From: Bacteroidota bacterium | GTDB lineage: Bacteria; Bacteroidota; Bacteroidia; NS11-12g; UBA955 | DNA length: 64,000 nucleotides | Direction of reading: 5' to 3' | NCBI GenBank assembly: GCA_023957335.1 | Contig: JAMLHC010000006.1 | Location: 124,001 to 188,000, forward strand | Shown: in pieces, positions 9,121 to 21,203 of the stretch | Position numbering within the stretch: position 1 is the first letter of the stretch | Layout of the letters: each line of letters begins with the position of its first letter | Made by a program: the position numbers and the translations under genes | The notes under the pieces: generated by a model | The model's database searches: none | Told to the model about the DNA's origin: nothing | Seen by the model: only the letters and a program-made list of their open reading frames with translations

Positions 9121-10413
9121 TTATTGCTTAATAATTTTCTCTCTGACTATTCTGTCAGAGCCTAAACCATTGGATAACTCTATGTAGTAAACCCCGTTAG
9201 GCAAATTGCTTATGTCAATCTGTTGAGACTGTTTACTCTCTGCCACAATATGAGTGGTAGCTAAAGAAAAAATCTTTATATCAGGTTGCACCATTCCGGA
9301 AATATACACGATACCATTAGAGGGATTAGGATAAATAAGTACATTATCATCAGTACCTTCCCAATAGTATTTCTGAACCTCGCTGTATTGATACACACCA
9401 TCTATATCGACTTGTTTTAATCTATATAAATTATATCCGGGCAGAGGTTGATTATCAATAAACTCATAAGAATGATTCTCATAGCTGTTTCCTGCTCCCT
9501 GCTTACTTCCGATGGTATTCCAAAACACCCCGTCTGTACTTTTTTGTACTTCAAAGTGGCTGTTATTGTTTTCGGTAGCAGTCGTCCAATGATACACAAT
9601 GCTGTTTGTAGTAGCAGTAAGAGTTTGGTTAACATAGCTTACAGGCAAAGGAACCGTAAGTGCGCCAAAAGGCAGAAACCAAAAAGAATTCTGACGGTCT
9701 GTAGCGTTGGCGCTACGTGTACCAATGACACCTGCTCGTATATCAAAATTTTGAACATTGACAAAGTTCATCTGTACTTGTGCCGCATGAATAGAAGAAT
9801 CAATGTTATTGTAAACAGGATACCCGCTCACATTCACTATCCAATTGCCAATCATACCGGAAGTTACTGCTGAACCAGTTATCCCATAAGGCATTGAAGG
9901 AGCAGACACCCAAACTGTTTCTTTAAAAGCATTTGTTCCGGTAGAATTTCCGCTTCCATCTATATCAAGAATGGTCATAGCCAAACAAGGGAAAGTGTAG
10001 GGATTATTATTGAAACTATTTGCCCCTGCTCCGTTGCGGGATGCAAACTCTACTTTAAATTCAGCCCAAGCGGTGTCGGTAGCAGAGGTTGACCTGGGCA
10101 CTGTAACGACAGGTTGCCAAGATGCAGCATAGCCACCGGCAGTATAATCCCAATTGCCGACAGTAACTGCAGAACTAGAACGTGCAATCCAAGTTATTCT
10201 CATAAAAATATCAGGTGAAGTTCCTATTTGTATTGTTTTAGAACGAGTGCCACCGGTCGTTTGACCACCCGAAGAAGTCCAACTCGCATTAGAACCGGGA
10301 TTTGAAATTACAACATTGTGAACCGGATAAACACATTGTGCATTTACATCCGAAAAATTCAATAAAAATCCTATTGCAAAAAATTGAACTACATTTAAAA
10401 TTGATTTTTTCAT
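9121..10413 (-). CDS. T9SS-secreted protein with type A sorting domain
   Basis: 430 residues. The start at MKKSILNVVQFFAIGF (10413) begins a clean signal peptide ending at VNAQ; the frame extends to 10452 without adding signal features. The C-terminus carries the type A sorting signal of the type IX secretion system: YPNPSNGIVYISG, an internal NLPNGVYYIEL, and a basic end. The body has no recognised catalytic motif. A region of about 70 residues before the sorting domain (VYHWTTATENNNSHFEVQKS) resembles the Ig/FN3-like module often found in front of T9SS tails. Probably a cell-surface or secreted protein. Confidence 0.85.
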   Translation of the reverse strand: MKKSILNVVQFFAIGFLLNFSDVNAQCVYPVHNVVISNPGSNASWTSSGGQTTGGTRSKTIQIGTSPDIFMRITWIARSSSAVTVGNWDYTAGGYAASWQPVVTVPRSTSATDTAWAEFKVEFASRNGAGANSFNNNPYTFPCLAMTILDIDGSGNSTGTNAFKETVWVSAPSMPYGITGSAVTSGMIGNWIVNVSGYPVYNNIDSSIHAAQVQMNFVNVQNFDIRAGVIGTRSANATDRQNSFWFLPFGALTVPLPVSYVNQTLTATTNSIVYHWTTATENNNSHFEVQKSTDGVFWNTIGSKQGAGNSYENHSYEFIDNQPLPGYNLYRLKQVDIDGVYQYSEVQKYYWEGTDDNVLIYPNPSNGIVYISGMVQPDIKIFSLATTHIVAESKQSQQIDISNLPNGVYYIELSNGLGSDRIVREKIIKQ

Positions 10414-10767: not shown

Positions 10768-11073
10768 TAAAAATTATCTAAGACAACAACCATGCAAACC
10801 CTCGCCAATCAAGGCTTTCAACAAGAACTAAAAAACTTGCATTGAAAAGGTATTTGGTTTAGTATTGCAGGTGGTTGGGAATAGGGAGATAGTGTATTTG
10901 ACAACGGTGCAAACATTTAGCAGAATAACAAACAACAGACTAAATGCAAACTTACAAATAACACATTGGGTTTTATCCGACACGCAAGGCAACCTTTCAA
11001 AAAAAACAAATGAGCCACTTTTTAGAATACGCTTTTACAAAATGTTAAATAACAAGAAGAAAGTAAAACAACC

Positions 11074-11238
11074 ATGTCATTAAACATACAGCATTTAGAA
11101 AACGAAATTATAGACCAATACCTCTATGACGAGAACCCAACAAGACCTTGGATAATAGGTTTTAGTGGTGGAAAGGATTCCACAATGCTTTTACAAGTCG
11201 TTTGGAATGCACTTAAAAAAATTGAAAAGTTGTATTAA
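11074..11238 (+). pseudogene. dndC: dndC remnant: N-terminal 54 codons of a DNA phosphorothioation sulfurtransferase
   Basis: The frame begins MSLNIQHLENEIIDQYLYDE and contains WIIGFSGGKDSTMLLQVVW, where SGGKDST is the PP-loop that binds ATP in DndC/PAPS-reductase-like enzymes. The flanking W-x-x-G and LLQ-V-W are characteristic of DndC, which with DndA/IscS, DndD and DndE places sulfur in the DNA backbone. DndC is normally about 500 residues. Here it stops (TAA) after 54, just past the PP-loop, and 20 bases later the endonuclease gene begins. The rest of dndC and any dndD/dndE are absent, so this looks like a deletion scar. A short genuine protein is unlikely because the PP-loop fold is incomplete. 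Confidence 0.72.
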
Positions 11239-11258: not shown

Positions 11259-12221
11259 GTGCAAGAGCTTTTACAGAAATATCTCAAAGCATTTAAAAAG
11301 CTAAGAATAGACAGGGCTCATGGCGTTGCTCCACACAAACCTATTTTGCTGATATCTGTATTACAAACTTTTCAAAACGGAATTAACAACAACCAAAGAA
11401 TTTACATCACTCCTGAGTTAGTAGCTCTTTTCAAATCAAATTGGAATTCTCTTGGTACTTCAAATCACGATTGCAGATTTGCCTTACCCTTCTATCATTT
11501 AACCAGCGATAAATTTTGGAAACTTATTCCAAATCCAGGCTTTGAAAATATTCTTCTACTATCAGCATCCATGCGAAGTTTTTCCAACCTAAACGCTGCC
11601 GTTAATTGTGCAGTAATAGATGAAGAATTACATGAATTGATAATAGACAAGAAGTGTAATGAAATTTTGATGCAGTTTTTATTGGACGATTATTTCCCAA
11701 ATAGTAAAGGTAATTTCAATAATTCAACTGGTTGTCAACAAAATTTATTTGATGACATAGAAAATAAAATCCTCAAAGAACCACCAGAAGAGTATCGCCA
11801 GGAAATCAAAAAACTGCTTGAACAAAAAGACGATGAAGAAATTTTCCTTCGAGGAAGTTTATTCAAGAGAGAGATTCCAAAAATTTACAACAATACTTGT
11901 TGCGTATCAGGGATGAAGATTGATGCAACAATAAATGTATCCATGATTGATGCCTGCCACATTGTGCCCTTTAGTATAAGCTATGATGATTCTGTAACGA
12001 ATGGCATTGCTTTATGCCCGAATTTACACAGGGCTTTTGATAGAGGATTGATTGCCATTGATGACGATTATCGGGTGGTTGTTTCAAAAAGTTTTAAAGA
12101 AGTTGAAACGAGCTATAACATAAGGGCGTTTGAGGGGAAAGAAATACAGTTGCCGAGAATGAAAAGTTATTATCCTTTGAGCGAGAATTTTGGATGGCAT
12201 AGGAAAAATGTGTTTAAATGA
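11259..12221 (+). CDS. Sulfur-binding-domain/HNH endonuclease (putative phosphorothioate-dependent restriction enzyme)
   Basis: 320 residues, GTG start. The N-terminal half (about 1-150) has RAHGVAPHKPILLISVL (APHKP at 24-28) and, around residues 70-82, HDCRFALPFYHLTSDKFWKL. This layout matches the sulfur-binding domain (SBD) of ScoMcrA-type enzymes that recognise phosphorothioated DNA. The C-terminal half is an HNH_2-type nuclease: NNTCCVSGM near 211-218, DACHIVPF with H234, and ALCPNLHRAFDRGLI with N255 and H257. Expected role: cleavage of modified DNA. It sits 20 bases after a dndC remnant and overlaps the following helicase gene by 4 bases (ATGA), which supports a joint defence function. 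Whether it needs phosphorothioate is inferred, not shown. Confidence 0.75.
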   Translation: MQELLQKYLKAFKKLRIDRAHGVAPHKPILLISVLQTFQNGINNNQRIYITPELVALFKSNWNSLGTSNHDCRFALPFYHLTSDKFWKLIPNPGFENILLLSASMRSFSNLNAAVNCAVIDEELHELIIDKKCNEILMQFLLDDYFPNSKGNFNNSTGCQQNLFDDIENKILKEPPEEYRQEIKKLLEQKDDEEIFLRGSLFKREIPKIYNNTCCVSGMKIDATINVSMIDACHIVPFSISYDDSVTNGIALCPNLHRAFDRGLIAIDDDYRVVVSKSFKEVETSYNIRAFEGKEIQLPRMKSYYPLSENFGWHRKNVFK

Positions 12222-15200
12222 ACTCAATAGCATTCATTGATACGGAAGTTGAGCCAAAGAGCCGAAAGATTCTTGACATCGGAAGTGTCAAGGGTGATGG
12301 AAGTTCTTTTCATAAAACTTCGGTTGCTGAATTCATATTGTTTCTGAACGGAACACAATTCATTTGCGGACACAACATTTTCAACCACGACATAAAATAT
12401 ATCGGCAAAGCACTCAATGATGCGGGAGTAAATTCTGCAAACATCATTGACACTTTATTTCTCTCTCCCCTGATATTTCCGACAAAGCCATATCATGCTT
12501 TGTTGAAAGATGACAAACTTCAATCAGAGGATTCTAACAATCCTTTGAATGATTCTATTAAAGCAAGAGATTTGTTCAATGACGAAGTTGCCGCCTTCAG
12601 GCAAACAGACGAAACACTGAAACAGATTTTCTATTTGCTTTTGAAAGACAAAAAGGAGTTCCACTCCTTTTTCCGTTTCATTGCATACACGGGAGTAAGC
12701 ACAGAAATTGAACAACTGATTCGCCAAAAATTTAAAAATGAAATTTGCGAACAAGCTGACTTGAAGAAAATAATTTCCGAATACCCGATTGAACTTGCAT
12801 ACTGTTTATCGCTTGTAGATTCTTTCATTCAACACAAGAAAATACATTCCATCACACCGCCTTGGGTGCTGAAAAATTATCCTGAAGTTGAACGGATAAT
12901 GTTTCGCTTGCGAAACAAACCTTGTGTAAGCGGTTGCGTGTATTGCGACAACGCATTAAACATTCACAAGGGATTGAAACGACTTTTCGGTTTTGATTCA
13001 TTCAGAACCTACGGAGGTGAACCACTGCAAGAGAAAGCAGTCAAAGCAGCCGTTGACAACAAATCCATTCTTGCAGTTTTCCCGACAGGCGGAGGCAAGT
13101 CAATCACTTTTCAAGTTCCTTCATTGATGAGTGGAGAATGTTCAAAGGGTTTGACAGTTGTGATTTCTCCTTTGCAATCATTAATGAAAGACCAAGTTGA
13201 CAATCTTGAAAAAGTTGGAATCACAGATGCGGTTACAATAAATGGTTTGCTTGACCCGATTGAAAGAGCAAAATCTTTTGAACGAGTTGAGGATGGTTCT
13301 GCTTCTATTCTTTACATCTCGCCTGAATCACTTCGTTCACGGACAATTGAGAGATTGATTTTGGGAAGAAAGATTGTTCGCTTTGTTATTGACGAAGCAC
13401 ATTGCTTTTCTTCGTGGGGACAGGATTTCCGTGTTGACTATTTATACATAGGTGATTTCATCAAGCAAATTCAGGAAAAGAAAAATCTTGAAGACGGAAT
13501 TCCAGTTTCATGTTTCACAGCAACAGCTAAGCAAAAGGTTATTGAAGATATTCGGGACTACTTCAAAGAAAAACTTTCGCTTGACCTTGAACTGTTCACT
13601 TCAAAAGCATCAAGAACAAATCTTCAATACAAAGTTTTTGAAAAAGGAGACGAGGAAACAAAGTATCAGCAAGCAAGAGACCTGATTGTGGAAAAAAATT
13701 GCCCGACTATCATTTATGTTTCAAGAACACGAAAAGCCGATTTATTGGCAGAAAGGTTGTCCAAAGACGGTTTTAGTGCAAGACCTTATCACGGCAAAAT
13801 GGATAAGCAGGAAAAATCTGAAAACCAAGATTTGTTTATCAATGGAGATACACAAATAATGGTGGCGACTTCTGCTTTCGGAATGGGAGTTGACAAGAAA
13901 GATGTTGGAATGGTGATTCACTATGAAATTTCCGATTCACTTGAAAACTATATTCAGGAAGCAGGAAGAGCTGGACGAGATGAAAATATAACAGCTGATT
14001 GCTTTGTGTTGTTTAACGAAGAAGATTTAAGCAAACACTTTATTCTTCTAAATCAAACTAAACTTTCAATTAAAGAAATTCAACAAATTTGGAAAGCAAT
14101 AAAAGAGATTACAAAGTTCCGTTCAACAGTTTCAAACTCCGCTTTGGAGATTGCACGGAAAGCAGGTTGGGATGATAATGTTGTAGAGATTGAAACAAGA
14201 GTAACGACAGCGATTGCCGCTTTAGAAGATGCTGGTTATTTGAAGCGAGGACAAAACATGCCGAGAGTTTTCGCTAATAGTATTCTTTCAAAGAATGCAC
14301 AAGAAGCCATTGACAAAATTAATGGTTCGGAACGATTTGAGGAAAAGCAAAAAGAAAAAGGAATCCGAATTATCAAGAAACTTTTTTCAAGTAAGAGCAG
14401 AAAGCAAGCAAACGATGAAGCAGCCGAATCAAGAATTGATTACATCAGCGACCATTTGGGAATTGTAAAAGAAGAAGTGATAAACATTGTGAATCTTCTT
14501 CGTGAGGAAAAGATTTTGGCTGATGCAAAGGACTTGACCGCTTTTATTAAGAAAGGAGAAAATAGAAACCGTTCTCTCAACATAGTTGAAACATTCAGTA
14601 AGATTGAAAATTTCTTGCTTCCAGTTTTTAAGGAACAGGAAAAGACATTTCACATCAAGGAACTTAACGAAGAAGCAGAGGCAAACGGTTGTGAAGATGT
14701 AAATACAAACAAGCTGAAAACCATTATCAACTTTTGGGCAATCAAGAATTGGATTAAGAGACAGAATCTTGAATACTCAAAAAATAATGTTGTGGTTCTT
14801 TGCCTGCATCCAAAAGAAACGCTGAGAGAAAAATTGGATAAGCGGCATGAGTTGGCAAAGTTCATAGTTGAACATCTCTATGAGAAAAGTAAACTGAATG
14901 TTTCAGAAGATGATAAAGACAAAGAGGAAGTATTGGTTGAGTTTTCAGTTCACGAATTGAAAGAGGAGTTTGAAAGGAAGCCGAAGTTGTTTGAAATAAA
15001 AATTACTCTTGACGATGTAGAAGACACTCTTTTCTACTTGTCAAGGATTGATGCCATAAAAATTGAAGGAGGATTTCTTGTTGTCTATAACAAACTGACC
15101 ATTGAAAGAGTTGAGCAAGATAATTACAAAAAATACACAAAAGAAGATTATCGGAAGCTAAATCAGTTTTACGAAAACAAGGTTCAGCAAATTCATATTG

Positions 15201-17041
15201 TTGGCGAATATGCCAAGAAAATGATTGATAACTACAAGGACGCATTACAATTTGTGGAGGATTATTTTCAATTAAACTACTGTTCGTTTCTTAAAAAGTA
15301 TTTCCCTGGAAGCAAAGTTGATACTCTAAAACTCAAAATGACTCCGGGAAAATTCAAACAACTTTTTGGAGATCTTTCTCCAACGCAGTTGAAAATTATA
15401 AACGACAATGAATCTAAAAACATTGTCGTAGCAGCTGGACCTGGAAGCGGTAAAACAAGAGTGTTGGTTCATAAATTGGCTTCATTGCTTTTGATGGAAG
15501 ATGTAAAACATGAGCAGTTGCTCATGGTAACTTTCTCAAGGGCAGCAGCAACTGAATTTAAGAAGCGTTTGTTAAAGTTAATTGGCAATGTAGCAAACTA
15601 CATTGAGATAAAAACCTTTCACTCCTACTGCTTTGATTTGTTAGGTAAGGTTGGAAGTTTGGAAAAGTCCAATGTGATTTTGAAAAAGACGATTGAAAAA
15701 ATTAAAAACAAGGAAGTTGAAGCAAACCGAATTACCAAAACTGTTTTAGTGATTGATGAAGCACAAGACATGGATGAAGATGAATACAATCTGATAAACG
15801 CCTTGATGGAACAGAACGAAGAAATGAGAGTGATTGCAGTTGGTGATGATGACCAGAACATTTATGAATTCAGAGGAGCAAGTGCAAAATATCTTGAACA
15901 TTTTATTCACGTGAGCAAAGCAGTCAAGCATGAATTGGTTGAGAACTACAGAAGCAAAAACAATCTTGTTGAATTCACGAATCAGTTTGTAAAAAGAATT
16001 CGTCATCGCTTAAAAGACACTCCAATCATTCCGAAGCAAGCCGACAACGGAAAAATAAAATTGGTTCGTTATCAAAGCGGCAATCTCATTACTCCGATTG
16101 TGCATGACATACTCACAACTGGACTTACAGGAACTACATGTGTGCTAACAAAGACGAATGAAGAAGCACTCCAAATCACTGGGCTCCTTTTAAAACATGA
16201 CATGCAAGCGAAGTTGATTCAAACCAATGATGGTTTCAGTTTGTATAATCTTTCCGAAGTCAGATTCTTTTTAAGCCAATTGAATTTGGCTGACGATGTT
16301 TTCATAATCAGCGATGATGTTTGGGCAAATGCGAAGCGGGAATTGATAGACAAGTTTAGGAACAGCACCAAATTGGAAGTATGCAACAACATCATCAAAG
16401 ATTTTGAAGCGACCAACCCAAAGAAGAAATACAAATCTGATTTGGAAGTTTTCATTCGTGAATCCAAGTTGGAAGATTTCTTCAATGAGAACGGAGAAAC
16501 AATTTTTGTTTCAACCATTCACAAAGCAAAAGGGAAAGAGTTTGACAATGTTTTCCTGATGCTAGAAAACTTCAATCCTGCAACTGACGAAGCTAAACGG
16601 CTCTTGTATGTTGCAATGACAAGAGCAAAGCAGAATTTGACCGTTCACATTAATTCAAATTTCCTTGATAATCTCTCGGTAGAAAATATAGAGCGAATTG
16701 ACGATAGAGAAATTTATTTACCGCCAAACGAAATAGCAATGCACTTGACATATACAGATGTTTGGCTTGATTACTTCATTAACAAACAACATTTAATTTC
16801 TCAACTAACAAGTGGAGATACTTTGACTTTGAACGGAGAAGAATGTTTGAATTTAAAAGGACAATCAGTTTTGAAATTCTCACAGAAGTTTGTAAGCCAA
16901 ATTGAAAGTAAGAAAGCGGAAAACTATTGCTTGAAGAGTGCAAAAGTAAATTTCATTGTTTACTGGAAAAAAGAAGACACCGAACAGGAAGTAAAAATAA
17001 TTTTACCAGAGCTTTATTTTGAAAGAAAAAGCAAGGAATGA
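12218..17041 (+). CDS. DEDDh exonuclease-RecQ-UvrD three-part helicase/nuclease
   Basis: 1607 residues, unusually long. (1) Residues 1-190: DnaQ-like 3'-5' exonuclease with IAFIDTEVEP (D8, E10), GHNIFNHD (H57, D58) and a distal H...NDSIKARDL pair. (2) About 225-245: cysteine cluster PCVSGCVYCDNAL. (3) About 260-600: RecQ helicase with FPTGGGKSITF (about 283-289), VIDEAHCFSSWGQDFR (about 390) and QEAGRAGRDE (motif VI). (4) About 1050-1520: UvrD/PcrA-like helicase with AAGPGSGKTRVL (about 1071), VIDEAQDMDEDE (about 1176), VENYRSKNNL, STIHKAKGKEFD and YVAMTRAKQNL. The usual four-Cys zinc site after the RecQ core is not visible. It overlaps the HNH gene by ATGA, so the two are translated together. 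Likely a DNA-processing partner in a restriction or repair system. Confidence 0.88.
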   Translation: MNSIAFIDTEVEPKSRKILDIGSVKGDGSSFHKTSVAEFILFLNGTQFICGHNIFNHDIKYIGKALNDAGVNSANIIDTLFLSPLIFPTKPYHALLKDDKLQSEDSNNPLNDSIKARDLFNDEVAAFRQTDETLKQIFYLLLKDKKEFHSFFRFIAYTGVSTEIEQLIRQKFKNEICEQADLKKIISEYPIELAYCLSLVDSFIQHKKIHSITPPWVLKNYPEVERIMFRLRNKPCVSGCVYCDNALNIHKGLKRLFGFDSFRTYGGEPLQEKAVKAAVDNKSILAVFPTGGGKSITFQVPSLMSGECSKGLTVVISPLQSLMKDQVDNLEKVGITDAVTINGLLDPIERAKSFERVEDGSASILYISPESLRSRTIERLILGRKIVRFVIDEAHCFSSWGQDFRVDYLYIGDFIKQIQEKKNLEDGIPVSCFTATAKQKVIEDIRDYFKEKLSLDLELFTSKASRTNLQYKVFEKGDEETKYQQARDLIVEKNCPTIIYVSRTRKADLLAERLSKDGFSARPYHGKMDKQEKSENQDLFINGDTQIMVATSAFGMGVDKKDVGMVIHYEISDSLENYIQEAGRAGRDENITADCFVLFNEEDLSKHFILLNQTKLSIKEIQQIWKAIKEITKFRSTVSNSALEIARKAGWDDNVVEIETRVTTAIAALEDAGYLKRGQNMPRVFANSILSKNAQEAIDKINGSERFEEKQKEKGIRIIKKLFSSKSRKQANDEAAESRIDYISDHLGIVKEEVINIVNLLREEKILADAKDLTAFIKKGENRNRSLNIVETFSKIENFLLPVFKEQEKTFHIKELNEEAEANGCEDVNTNKLKTIINFWAIKNWIKRQNLEYSKNNVVVLCLHPKETLREKLDKRHELAKFIVEHLYEKSKLNVSEDDKDKEEVLVEFSVHELKEEFERKPKLFEIKITLDDVEDTLFYLSRIDAIKIEGGFLVVYNKLTIERVEQDNYKKYTKEDYRKLNQFYENKVQQIHIVGEYAKKMIDNYKDALQFVEDYFQLNYCSFLKKYFPGSKVDTLKLKMTPGKFKQLFGDLSPTQLKIINDNESKNIVVAAGPGSGKTRVLVHKLASLLLMEDVKHEQLLMVTFSRAAATEFKKRLLKLIGNVANYIEIKTFHSYCFDLLGKVGSLEKSNVILKKTIEKIKNKEVEANRITKTVLVIDEAQDMDEDEYNLINALMEQNEEMRVIAVGDDDQNIYEFRGASAKYLEHFIHVSKAVKHELVENYRSKNNLVEFTNQFVKRIRHRLKDTPIIPKQADNGKIKLVRYQSGNLITPIVHDILTTGLTGTTCVLTKTNEEALQITGLLLKHDMQAKLIQTNDGFSLYNLSEVRFFLSQLNLADDVFIISDDVWANAKRELIDKFRNSTKLEVCNNIIKDFEATNPKKKYKSDLEVFIRESKLEDFFNENGETIFVSTIHKAKGKEFDNVFLMLENFNPATDEAKRLLYVAMTRAKQNLTVHINSNFLDNLSVENIERIDDREIYLPPNEIAMHLTYTDVWLDYFINKQHLISQLTSGDTLTLNGEECLNLKGQSVLKFSQKFVSQIESKKAENYCLKSAKVNFIVYWKKEDTEQEVKIILPELYFERKSKE

Positions 17042-17321
17042 AAAGCCCATTCACAATCAATAAAACACGCTTGCAAGCCACTCAAAGCCAACGCCTGAAC
17101 CAAAGCTCGCAAGAGTGTATTTTTTGTCCAAGCCGAGCAAGGTAGTAGAATAGTGACAGCCGTCAACAAACGGTTTGGACGCAAGCAGGGTATTCCCAAA
17201 ATCTGCATAATCCTAAACTCAAAGTCGGTATTTCAATTAAGGTACAATAGGTATAAATACCTACTTCAGCATATTGGGAGATATCTTAAATTTGTTTCGA
17301 ATTAAAAGAAATAGAAAAAAG
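17042..17321. other. Non-coding boundary segment downstream of the defence pair
   Basis: 280 bases with no supported gene. About 17080-17200 looks more GC-rich than its surroundings and contains the dyad CAAAC-G-GTTTG at 17167-17177. A 64-codon minus-strand frame here has no protein-like signature. It may be the edge of the acquired region, but no direct repeats or tRNA end were found. Confidence 0.4.
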
Positions 17322-18623
17322 ATGAAACTAAAAGCAATACTTATTGCAGCTTGTTTATTAAGCTCTTCCCTATCAAATTACGCTCAAGACTTAATACCTT
17401 TTAGAAGCGGGCATTTGTGGGGATTTTGCACACCCGATAAAGAAGTTGTTATTCCTCCTATCTATGAATATGTAACTAACTTTCAAGACGGTTTAGCTGC
17501 TGTTTCCAAAGGATGTTTTGATTGTTATGACCAATACGATGGAAAATGGGGATTCATTAACGAAAAAGGAGAAACCGTCATTCCCTTTCAATATTATCAT
17601 GCTTACCCTTTTTATAAAGGTTACACATGGGTAAGATTAGATGGTTACATGGACTTTTGGGCTAAAATTAATAAGAAAGGAGAGTTATTAGACTCTACCG
17701 ATTCTGAACCTTACTTAAATAAACAAGTAAAGAAGAATATCTTAAATTCTAAAAAACAGAATAAAAAATACACCTTCAATGAAGATACGGTGACACAAAT
17801 AGGAAATATTGCCATTCAAAAGGGATATCAATCTAAGACCACAAATTATTGGGAAGACCCCGAAGCAGTTTATTTCTATCCTGTTTCCATTAGTTCTAAT
17901 AAAAAAGATTTTTCTCAATCTACAAAAGACACGCTTCAATTTACGATAGCGAGCAACCGATTTTCTAATGAATTAGACGCACAGTCATTGACACTTCCCC
18001 CTACTTTAGTAGTATTAACACAAACTGATACAGGAATTACAGTCGTCAAAACATTTCCATTAGGAGCAGATCAAAAAACAGAGAACTCGATAATATACAA
18101 TAAGGTATTAGATTCAGAGGGCTTAATTCCTTATCTAAGAATGATTACGGATGCAGATGAAATTGAAGAATTTGTGGCAGGAAACAACTATATAATAATG
18201 TTAAGCACTTCTTTATTTATTCCAACCAATGCCCTTAAGGAAAATGTTTTTTTTGAGTTATATAGAAAAAGAATCTTCCTAATATCAACAATAGAGGGAA
18301 CGGCCTTCTATCATATTTATACGAGTCCTTATGAATTAATGAATGAGCAGAGAGTCAATGAAATTCTAACGGAAATGATTGATGACATTAAAAATGCTGG
18401 AGATCTTTTTAGTTTCGATGAAAGATTAACTACAAGTATTATTGATATGAATAATCCGTATTTTGGAAGAACAATTGCAGAAGTTATGATAAATGTTACC
18501 AAAGATGAAGTGCTGATATTTTTAAATTATATGAACGCTAATCCTTATAGCTATATGGGAGAAACATGGACGTTATCGGAAATATTTGCAACCTGGGTAG
18601 AACGTGGAGCGCCAACAAAGTAA
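17322..18623 (+). CDS. Secreted WG-repeat protein
   Basis: 433 residues from ATG 17322, which opens a signal peptide (MKLKAILIAACLLSSSL, cleavage near YAQ); an upstream in-frame ATG at 17274 would bury it. The N-terminal third holds WG-type repeats: LWGFCTPDKEVVIPPIYEYV and KWGFINEKGETVIPFQYYHA, plus a weaker third copy (DFWAKINKKGELLD). WG repeats are probable beta-structured surface modules of unknown ligand. The remaining 280 residues have no motif I recognise. The gene stands alone after the helicase/nuclease pair, with no close neighbour. Confidence 0.75.
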   Translation: MKLKAILIAACLLSSSLSNYAQDLIPFRSGHLWGFCTPDKEVVIPPIYEYVTNFQDGLAAVSKGCFDCYDQYDGKWGFINEKGETVIPFQYYHAYPFYKGYTWVRLDGYMDFWAKINKKGELLDSTDSEPYLNKQVKKNILNSKKQNKKYTFNEDTVTQIGNIAIQKGYQSKTTNYWEDPEAVYFYPVSISSNKKDFSQSTKDTLQFTIASNRFSNELDAQSLTLPPTLVVLTQTDTGITVVKTFPLGADQKTENSIIYNKVLDSEGLIPYLRMITDADEIEEFVAGNNYIIMLSTSLFIPTNALKENVFFELYRKRIFLISTIEGTAFYHIYTSPYELMNEQRVNEILTEMIDDIKNAGDLFSFDERLTTSIIDMNNPYFGRTIAEVMINVTKDEVLIFLNYMNANPYSYMGETWTLSEIFATWVERGAPTK

Positions 18624-20559: not shown

Positions 20560-21108
20560 TTAATTGAGAAAGGGGAAACGAAATTTTCCATTTTTTTTAT
20601 CGTATTGACATGGTACAACTTCTTTACCCTCATTATCAATAAATCCGTACATACTCTCCTGTTTGACCAATGCCCAATTTTCTCTAATAGCGCCAAATCC
20701 AAAAATCTGATCGTATTGACATGGTACTACTTCTTTACCGCTCATATCAATAAATCCGTACATACCTTCCTGTTTGACCAATGCCCAATTTTCCTTAAAA
20801 ACGCCAAATGCAAAAATCTTATCGTATTGACATGGTACAACTTCCTTACCCTCATTATCAATAAATCCGTACATACCCTCCTGTTTGACCAATGCCCAAT
20901 TTTTTCTAATAGCGCCAAATTCGTAAATCCTATCGTATTGACATGGCACTACTACTTTACCGTTAATATCAATAAATCCGTACATACCCTCCTGTTTGAT
21001 CAATGCCCAATTTTCTCTAAAAACGCCATATTCTTGAGGTTGTGCATTACTTTCAAATACGCCACAAGCCAATACACTCAGTGCCATTATTTTTAATATA
21101 TTTTTCAT
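20560..21108 (-). CDS. Secreted WG-repeat protein made of four near-identical 37-residue units
   Basis: 182 residues from MKNILKIMALSVLACGV (signal peptide; cleavage near SNAQ). The mature part is almost only four repeats of 37 residues with core NWALVKQEGMYGFID, then GKEVVPCQYD. The coding DNA is correspondingly repeated every 111 bases. Each unit is one WG-like repeat in which the glycine-phenylalanine of YGFID is kept. Every unit carries one cysteine (CQYD). The C-terminus ends abruptly after unit 4 (KKNGKFRFPFLN). Function unknown. Likely a periplasmic or surface module subject to repeat-number change. Confidence 0.8.
   Translation of the reverse strand: MKNILKIMALSVLACGVFESNAQPQEYGVFRENWALIKQEGMYGFIDINGKVVVPCQYDRIYEFGAIRKNWALVKQEGMYGFIDNEGKEVVPCQYDKIFAFGVFKENWALVKQEGMYGFIDMSGKEVVPCQYDQIFGFGAIRENWALVKQESMYGFIDNEGKEVVPCQYDKKNGKFRFPFLN
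20599..21042. repeat. Four tandem 111-bp repeats inside the WG-repeat gene
   Basis: The 15-mer ATCGTATTGACATGG recurs at 20599, 20710, 20821 and 20932, an exact 111-base period (37 codons). Units alternate in type: protein repeats 1 and 3 share a GVF(R/K)EN start, while repeats 2 and 4 share FGAIR and DNEGKEVV. This suggests that a two-unit 222-bp block was duplicated. Confidence 0.9.
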
Positions 21109-21203
21109 AACACAAATGTTTTTAGTTCGAGTCAAAATTAAATATAATTTTTAAACTACCAAATTGATGTTATCAAAATCATATCTTATTATATACAAAA
21201 TCC

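Follow-up and report, generated by a model that had tools for sequence, protein, structure and literature searches.

A 54-codon frame in the 64,000-nucleotide stretch of Bacteroidota DNA analysed here (the window) represents the 5'-terminal part of a dndC gene, about its first 51 codons. DndC is the sulfurtransferase of DNA phosphorothioation. The fragment, here called the stump, lies just ahead of a gene for an endonuclease of the SBD-HNH type and is probably the promoter-proximal remnant of a dnd island displaced by that nuclease, an exchange that would have occurred recurrently. Together with similar loci in other genomes, it suggests a recurrent footprint of epigenetic conflict in Bacteroidota, beyond a single local scar.

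The Truncated dndC Gene

The frame (Table 1) runs from ATG to TAA, encodes 54 amino acids and contains WIIGFSGGKDSTMLLQVVW. It matches DndC profiles near their N termini, PADLOC PDLC02662 at E 4.2e-14 and TIGR03183 at E 7.5e-11, the latter only over positions 6-42 of 447 and with 38.6 bits, below the curated cut-off of 290. Competing PP-loop families score far more weakly (NcsA, 1.9e-4; TilS, 1.4e-3; Pfam PP-loop, 0.0044), which rules them out as better matches. Dnd annotation of plasmids agrees, as 13 of the 17 plasmid records matching the frame carry dndC under the match, with a best identity of 60%. Protein identity to intact dndC products reaches 90% over 51 residues, and in DNA the closest intact gene, from genome G597, shows 86% identity across 170 bp, the similarity ending after codon 51.

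In a profile search of the window genome (G000) the stump was the sole DndC match, and DndD (TIGR03185) found no match. Insertion of a nuclease cassette into dndC, with the 3' part of the gene lying beyond it, is ruled out for G000 since there is no second DndC match. The earlier note had called the frame DndC-like from its PP-loop and had taken the modification genes to be gone; the first statement holds up against the other PP-loop families, and the second for DndD and the rest of DndC. To the left, an interspersed sequence of about 80 bp stops exactly at the start of the dndC-homologous block.

TABLE 1. Features of the window at and around the dndC stump
Feature	Position	Strand	Basis or detail
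Interspersed repeat directly left of the dndC-homologous block	10954-11035		70-76% matches in G403, G407, G397 and own contig C5
First part of the homologous block: dndC upstream segment also present at the G432 stump locus	11036-11073	+	blastn, 92% over 149 bp to G432 C33, from 11036
54-codon frame	11074-11238	+	Codons 1-51 (11074-11226) dndC-derived, PP-loop SGGKDST included; DndC profiles, DNA identity to intact dndC
Junction/spacer from dndC-derived codons to nuclease start codon	11227-11258	+	6/31 aligned bases differ from G432 versus 5/153 in the stump
SBD-HNH endonuclease, 320 amino acids, GTG start	11259-12221	+	SBD about residues 1-150; HNH residues 214-268 (11898-12062)
RecQ-UvrD fusion helicase, 1607 amino acids, 4-nt overlap with the nuclease gene	12218-17041	+	TIGR00614 recQ, 1.6e-82; UvrD, 1.8e-33

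The Adjacent SBD-HNH Nuclease

The stop codon of the stump is separated from the GTG of the nuclease gene by 20 bp. The encoded protein matches NF045808 (PT-DNA restriction endonuclease) over positions 6-284 of 284 at E 1.2e-36, although its 126.3 bits miss the curated cut-off of 180, and its HNH domain matches Pfam HNH_2 at E 7.9e-14 (51.7 bits, above the cut-off of 21). A profile of the nuclease compared with the PDB finds the SBD of Hga (8h0l) at E 5e-22. Foldseek, run with an AF2 model, finds the same structure (E 6e-9, TM 0.87 on the target) and also the 7ccd and 5zmo SBDs, and its top 13 hits comprise only SBDs and the whole enzyme ScoMcrA. In this model, built from a 13-row alignment with a mean pLDDT of 72 and poor in the HNH half (below 50 in residues 218-254), the first ~150 residues adopt the fold of phosphorothioate-binding domains of known structure.

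The sulfur-cavity residues H26, K27 and P77 are invariant in all 13 aligned relatives, are aligned in SBDHga1, and, from the alignment together with the account in PMC6224610, correspond to ScoMcrA H116, R/K117 and P165. At the position of the tyrosine lid the nuclease has Leu, as does the solved SBDHga1; the lid tyrosine is reported as conserved in just 7 of 23 homologues (PMC6224610). From its sequence and modeled fold, the window nuclease very probably cuts phosphorothioated DNA, following type IV logic. The earlier note had likewise described an SBD-like N terminus twenty bases beyond the stump and proposed a modification-dependent, type IV-like enzyme, which appears to be the best reading of this protein.

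An EcoWI-like gene occurs in 234 of 5426 E. coli genomes. Viral contigs yielded one weak partial nuclease match (L172) only, and the nuclease has no match in the 21 viral loci whose sequences resemble the DndC N terminus.

A Junction Shared with Another Family

Genome G432, from the same order and another family, has the same stump and junction at 94% DNA identity. As G432 was assembled independently, misassembly, which the earlier note had wished to see excluded, is unlikely. The G432 nuclease is internally deleted, with residues 1-45 joined to 209-320, and no helicase is present at that locus. Among 108 genomes of the order, DndC is confined to G000 and G432, in both merely as stumps, and in G432 no DndC was found beyond the stump. 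A dnd system is thus probably not native to the order, and the stump probably arrived with a mobile block. Because the junction is common to the two genomes, it is old and mobile and not a recent local deletion. No sister strain with an intact island was found, the synteny of G395 with the window ending at 10341, nor was any strain pair showing an intact and a replaced island at one site.

Since the junction is shared, the differences between the two stumps arose after truncation. Only 5 of 153 sites differ, four changes being synonymous and one conservative (E51D), versus 14 of 69 in the flanks (8/38 upstream and 6/31 downstream; Fisher 8e-5), and the synonymous excess has p 0.009. The upstream count is that of the blastn alignment; MAFFT misplaced this stretch, giving 14/38. 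For this one pair of sequences, the pattern is unlike mere decay and suggests a translated leader.

Recurrent Stumps with Different Breakpoints

A full-length dndC query matched 26 of 395 genomes of the class, the matches being intact genes, some weak non-N-terminal matches, and four short 5' stumps (G000, G432, G531 and G617). All four are 5' ends on the same strand as an SBD-HNH gene, within about 21 bp of its start or overlapping it. Approached from the other gene, upstream regions of SBD-HNH genes contain a stump in 6 of 36 cases, some of these regions being truncated where the contig stops (that of L273 at 71 bases); this adds G525 and the decayed G711. Breakpoints, as read from the sequences, follow codon ~51 (G000 and G432), 39 (G711, frameshifted), 36 (G531), 32 (G617) and 20 (G525), and the stumps of G617 and G525 lack the full PP-loop. 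If breakpoints were uniformly distributed, the chance that all five would fall within the first 51 of 438 codons is about 2e-5. In all six loci the stump stops close to the nuclease start or overlaps it; the G525 stump contains the ATG of the nuclease gene.

In the nuclease tree, stump-bearing members fall in two clades, with the stumpless G537, L155, L158 and L084 between them. For the G617 stump the nearest relative is not another stump but the intact dndC of G597. In a stump tree of at most 153 bp with weak support, the constraint of five stumps to one clade is rejected only at p-AU 0.04. These relationships suggest repeated capture or exchange of the stump arrangement, with a confidence that is modest because the stump sequences are short. 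Homology between the G432 stump and an intact dndC extends into their upstream regions. In G000, only 38 bp of the dnd upstream region is left and the island iscS is gone, so that for the window itself promoter capture is no more than a possibility.

Retained iscS and Variable Cargo

A second trace of dnd islands lies to the right of the nuclease, where an iscS gene on the opposite strand is intact in G617, G531 and G711 and fragmentary in G432 and G525. An island IscS is thus found at 5 of 6 stump loci versus 0 of 7 stumpless loci (Fisher 0.005), a set of seven that excludes L289 and L158, where too little sequence is available to the right. Intact dnd islands in G803, G692, G791, G552 and G673 have a convergent iscS at the same relative place. 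In the IscS tree, the full-length island copies from the stump loci of G617, G531 and G711 and from the intact islands of G803, G692 and G791 group with the C57 copy of G597 in a single clade (support 98/96) that stands apart from housekeeping IscS; the G673 protein falls outside it. A KilA-N neighbor lies beside iscS in G597 as in G617, the link of the G597 contig to its dnd island being unproven. Only one of the 16 genomes in the family of G617 has the island IscS, which therefore came with the island. Housekeeping-type IscS (51-55%) is present in G000, G432 and G525, whose island copy is lost or decayed, and no separate housekeeping-type IscS was found in G617, G531 and G711, whose island copy is intact.

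The cargo between stump and iscS varies, from the nuclease and small genes only to a system in G531 that we take to be Wadjet-like from its gene layout and a DUF3584 match, and to Hachiman HamA plus helicase in G711; BRO and RmuC are often present. Beside SBD-HNH genes, BRO, RmuC and a 102-amino acid protein occur in varying combinations (L286, 5873-9112; L287, 13311-16173; L294, 6886-12157; L084, 6242-8577). None of the three occurs in any of the 12 intact islands that were tested. From their gene content, the stump loci look like former dnd islands in which dndCDE was displaced by a presumed anti-phosphorothioate nuclease.

The Helicase and the Right Flank

The RecQ-UvrD helicase has relatives of about 1600 residues (69-90% identity) in 80 retrieved loci (L084-L163), none with dndC within the retrieved DNA, and an SBD-HNH gene abuts the helicase upstream in only three of them (L084, L155 and L158). 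The helicase is a fast-moving gene that travels independently and possibly has a defensive role. As a Dnd component it is ruled out by these loci and by its varying neighbors. The helicase is found in many Bacteroidota and also in records labelled Brocadia, Fibrobacter and Lentisphaerae, and its neighbors are hardly ever the same. Further right in the window, two WG-repeat proteins are encoded, one on each strand (17274-18623 and 20560-21135).

Reverse Scars and Coexistence

Intact SBD-HNH genes are present at none of 24 dndC loci within the retrieved stretches, and broken copies at two. In G099 (L072, 8656-9000), a nuclease 5' fragment of ~70 codons lies ~120 bp before an intact dndC-dndD-dndE-DGQHR operon; in G374 (L070, 5415-5897), a nuclease pseudogene lies ~3 kb upstream of intact dndC. 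On a plasmid of Picosynechococcus PCC 7117 (L310, 6949-13262), an intact nuclease gene is found ~3.5 kb from a dndC 3' fragment (residues 183-434) and a dndD 5' fragment. Among ten loci with both genes close together, a list that is not a systematic sample, at least one of the two is broken in nine (G000, G432, G617, G525, G531, G711, G099, G374 and PCC 7117). The exception is a Chlorohelix plasmid, in which an intact SBD-HNH homologue (31% identity) abuts an intact dnd cluster; in G080 both are intact on different contigs. The incompatibility is therefore not absolute, and avoidance at the level of genomes is not demonstrable from so few cases, G080 being the one genome with both.

Experimental reports describe such a conflict. 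Co-expression of dndA-E with ScoMcrA is reported to kill cells, and an introduced dnd cluster to select rare mutants (PMC3009677). SBD homologues are described as restricting dnd transfer up to 1000-fold (PMC6224610), and EcoWI as blocking dnd+ plasmids (PMC7461809). According to the last of these sources, SBD-HNH genes lie near dnd clusters in less than 3.6% of cases, and for linked cases mutated dnd genes or an inactive nuclease were proposed as the explanation in 2020. A caution for displacement comes from SBD-SRA-HNH genes just downstream of dnd genes, described as possible restriction partners (PMC10853773).

How the Stumps May Have Arisen

In the displacement scenario, one cell could not hold both an SBD-HNH nuclease and an active dnd operon whose sequence specificity matches, so that a lineage acquiring the nuclease would survive if dnd were destroyed. 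A nuclease placed right behind the dndC start would inherit the expression signals of dndC. With five breakpoints between codons ~20 and 51 and a member of the nuclease family always next, displacement would have happened, or been re-trimmed, several times, and the dndA-type iscS would often persist at the far end of the island. A bolder version, which must be considered rather doubtful, would make the stump islands self-propagating anti-dnd replacement cassettes with the dndC 5' end and the dndA-type iscS as homology arms. A double crossover would then convert a related dnd island, ending modification and taking the promoter in one step, and the stump would be kept for its role as homology arm, as translated leader, or in both capacities.

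The same geometry would result if an ancestral island had dndCDE followed by an SBD-HNH restriction partner and lost everything from dndC codon ~51 up to where the nuclease begins. Microhomology for such a deletion could have been provided by a poly-A tract, which is seen at the dndC junction and again ahead of the L084 nuclease. SBD-type HNH nucleases with an SRA domain do occur just downstream of dnd genes in the account of PMC10853773, and Chlorohelix has both intact side by side. The scenario is nevertheless unlikely: the 24 dndC loci hold no intact SBD-HNH gene, BRO, RmuC and the 102-amino acid gene of the stump islands are missing from the intact islands tested, nucleases of the same clade exist without stump and without iscS, and the junction common to G432, in another family, is hence not a local event. 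What survives of the deletion scar proposed in the earlier note is the truncation of dndC; a recent local deletion does not, given that junction and the other breakpoints elsewhere. That note had also viewed nuclease and helicase as leftovers of a Dnd system, which the dndC loci and the 80 helicase loci described above do not support, and had stated that its reading would be refuted by sister genomes that have this frame but lack Dnd genes altogether; as far as tested, G432 is such a genome, its only DndC being the stump.

Displacement and deletion are both compatible with a stump that still functions, as a small gene or as a leader, its DndC N-terminal piece being translated and either needed for nuclease expression or acting on Dnd complexes. 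This is a tentative possibility, consistent with the sparing of the stump relative to its flanks and with stop codons close to or overlapping the nuclease start in every case, including the ATG within the G525 stump; against it are the single informative pair, the frameshift in G711, the existence of stumpless relatives, and the missing PP-loop residues in G617 and G525. Finally, a dndC fragment and a nuclease gene might have been joined by chance at a defense hotspot, as defense islands are rich in broken genes and the cargo beside the nuclease varies freely. Mere debris is very improbable, however, in view of the four stumps that were found independently of the nuclease and all adjoin it, the clustering of breakpoints, and the iscS association.

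Displacement by the nuclease, as the probable history, would give recurrent genomic scars, in both directions, of a conflict between phosphorothioation and SBD nucleases known from the laboratory. The scars would point to one way in which dnd islands disappear and may account in part for their patchy occurrence. With the stump, one can put to the test whether a restriction gene uses expression signals taken from the system that it destroyed.

Comparison with Known Systems

Compared with DndC and the DndABCDE islands, codons 1-51 of the stump match and the stump islands retain a dndA-type iscS, whereas the window genome lacks nearly 90% of DndC and all of DndD. The nuclease resembles the SBD-HNH PT-dependent endonucleases (EcoWI, SprMcrA, Hga; NF045808) in domain order, length and SBD fold, but scores under the cut-off of their family profile and sits behind a dndC stump. 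In the openly accessible literature (outside subscription sources), covered mostly as titles and abstract openings, no description of dndC stumps before SBD-HNH genes was found, and the section of PMC7461809 on genomic neighborhoods does not include the recurrent 5' stump geometry with retained iscS. As in the ScoMcrA-dnd conflict of Streptomyces (PMC3009677), a PT-dependent type IV enzyme and dnd genes appear mutually exclusive; that conflict, as reported there, is a laboratory observation involving separate islands, whereas the present loci are genomic scars inside one island type. For the linked cases discussed in PMC7461809, they provide concrete examples of both broken dnd genes and broken nucleases.
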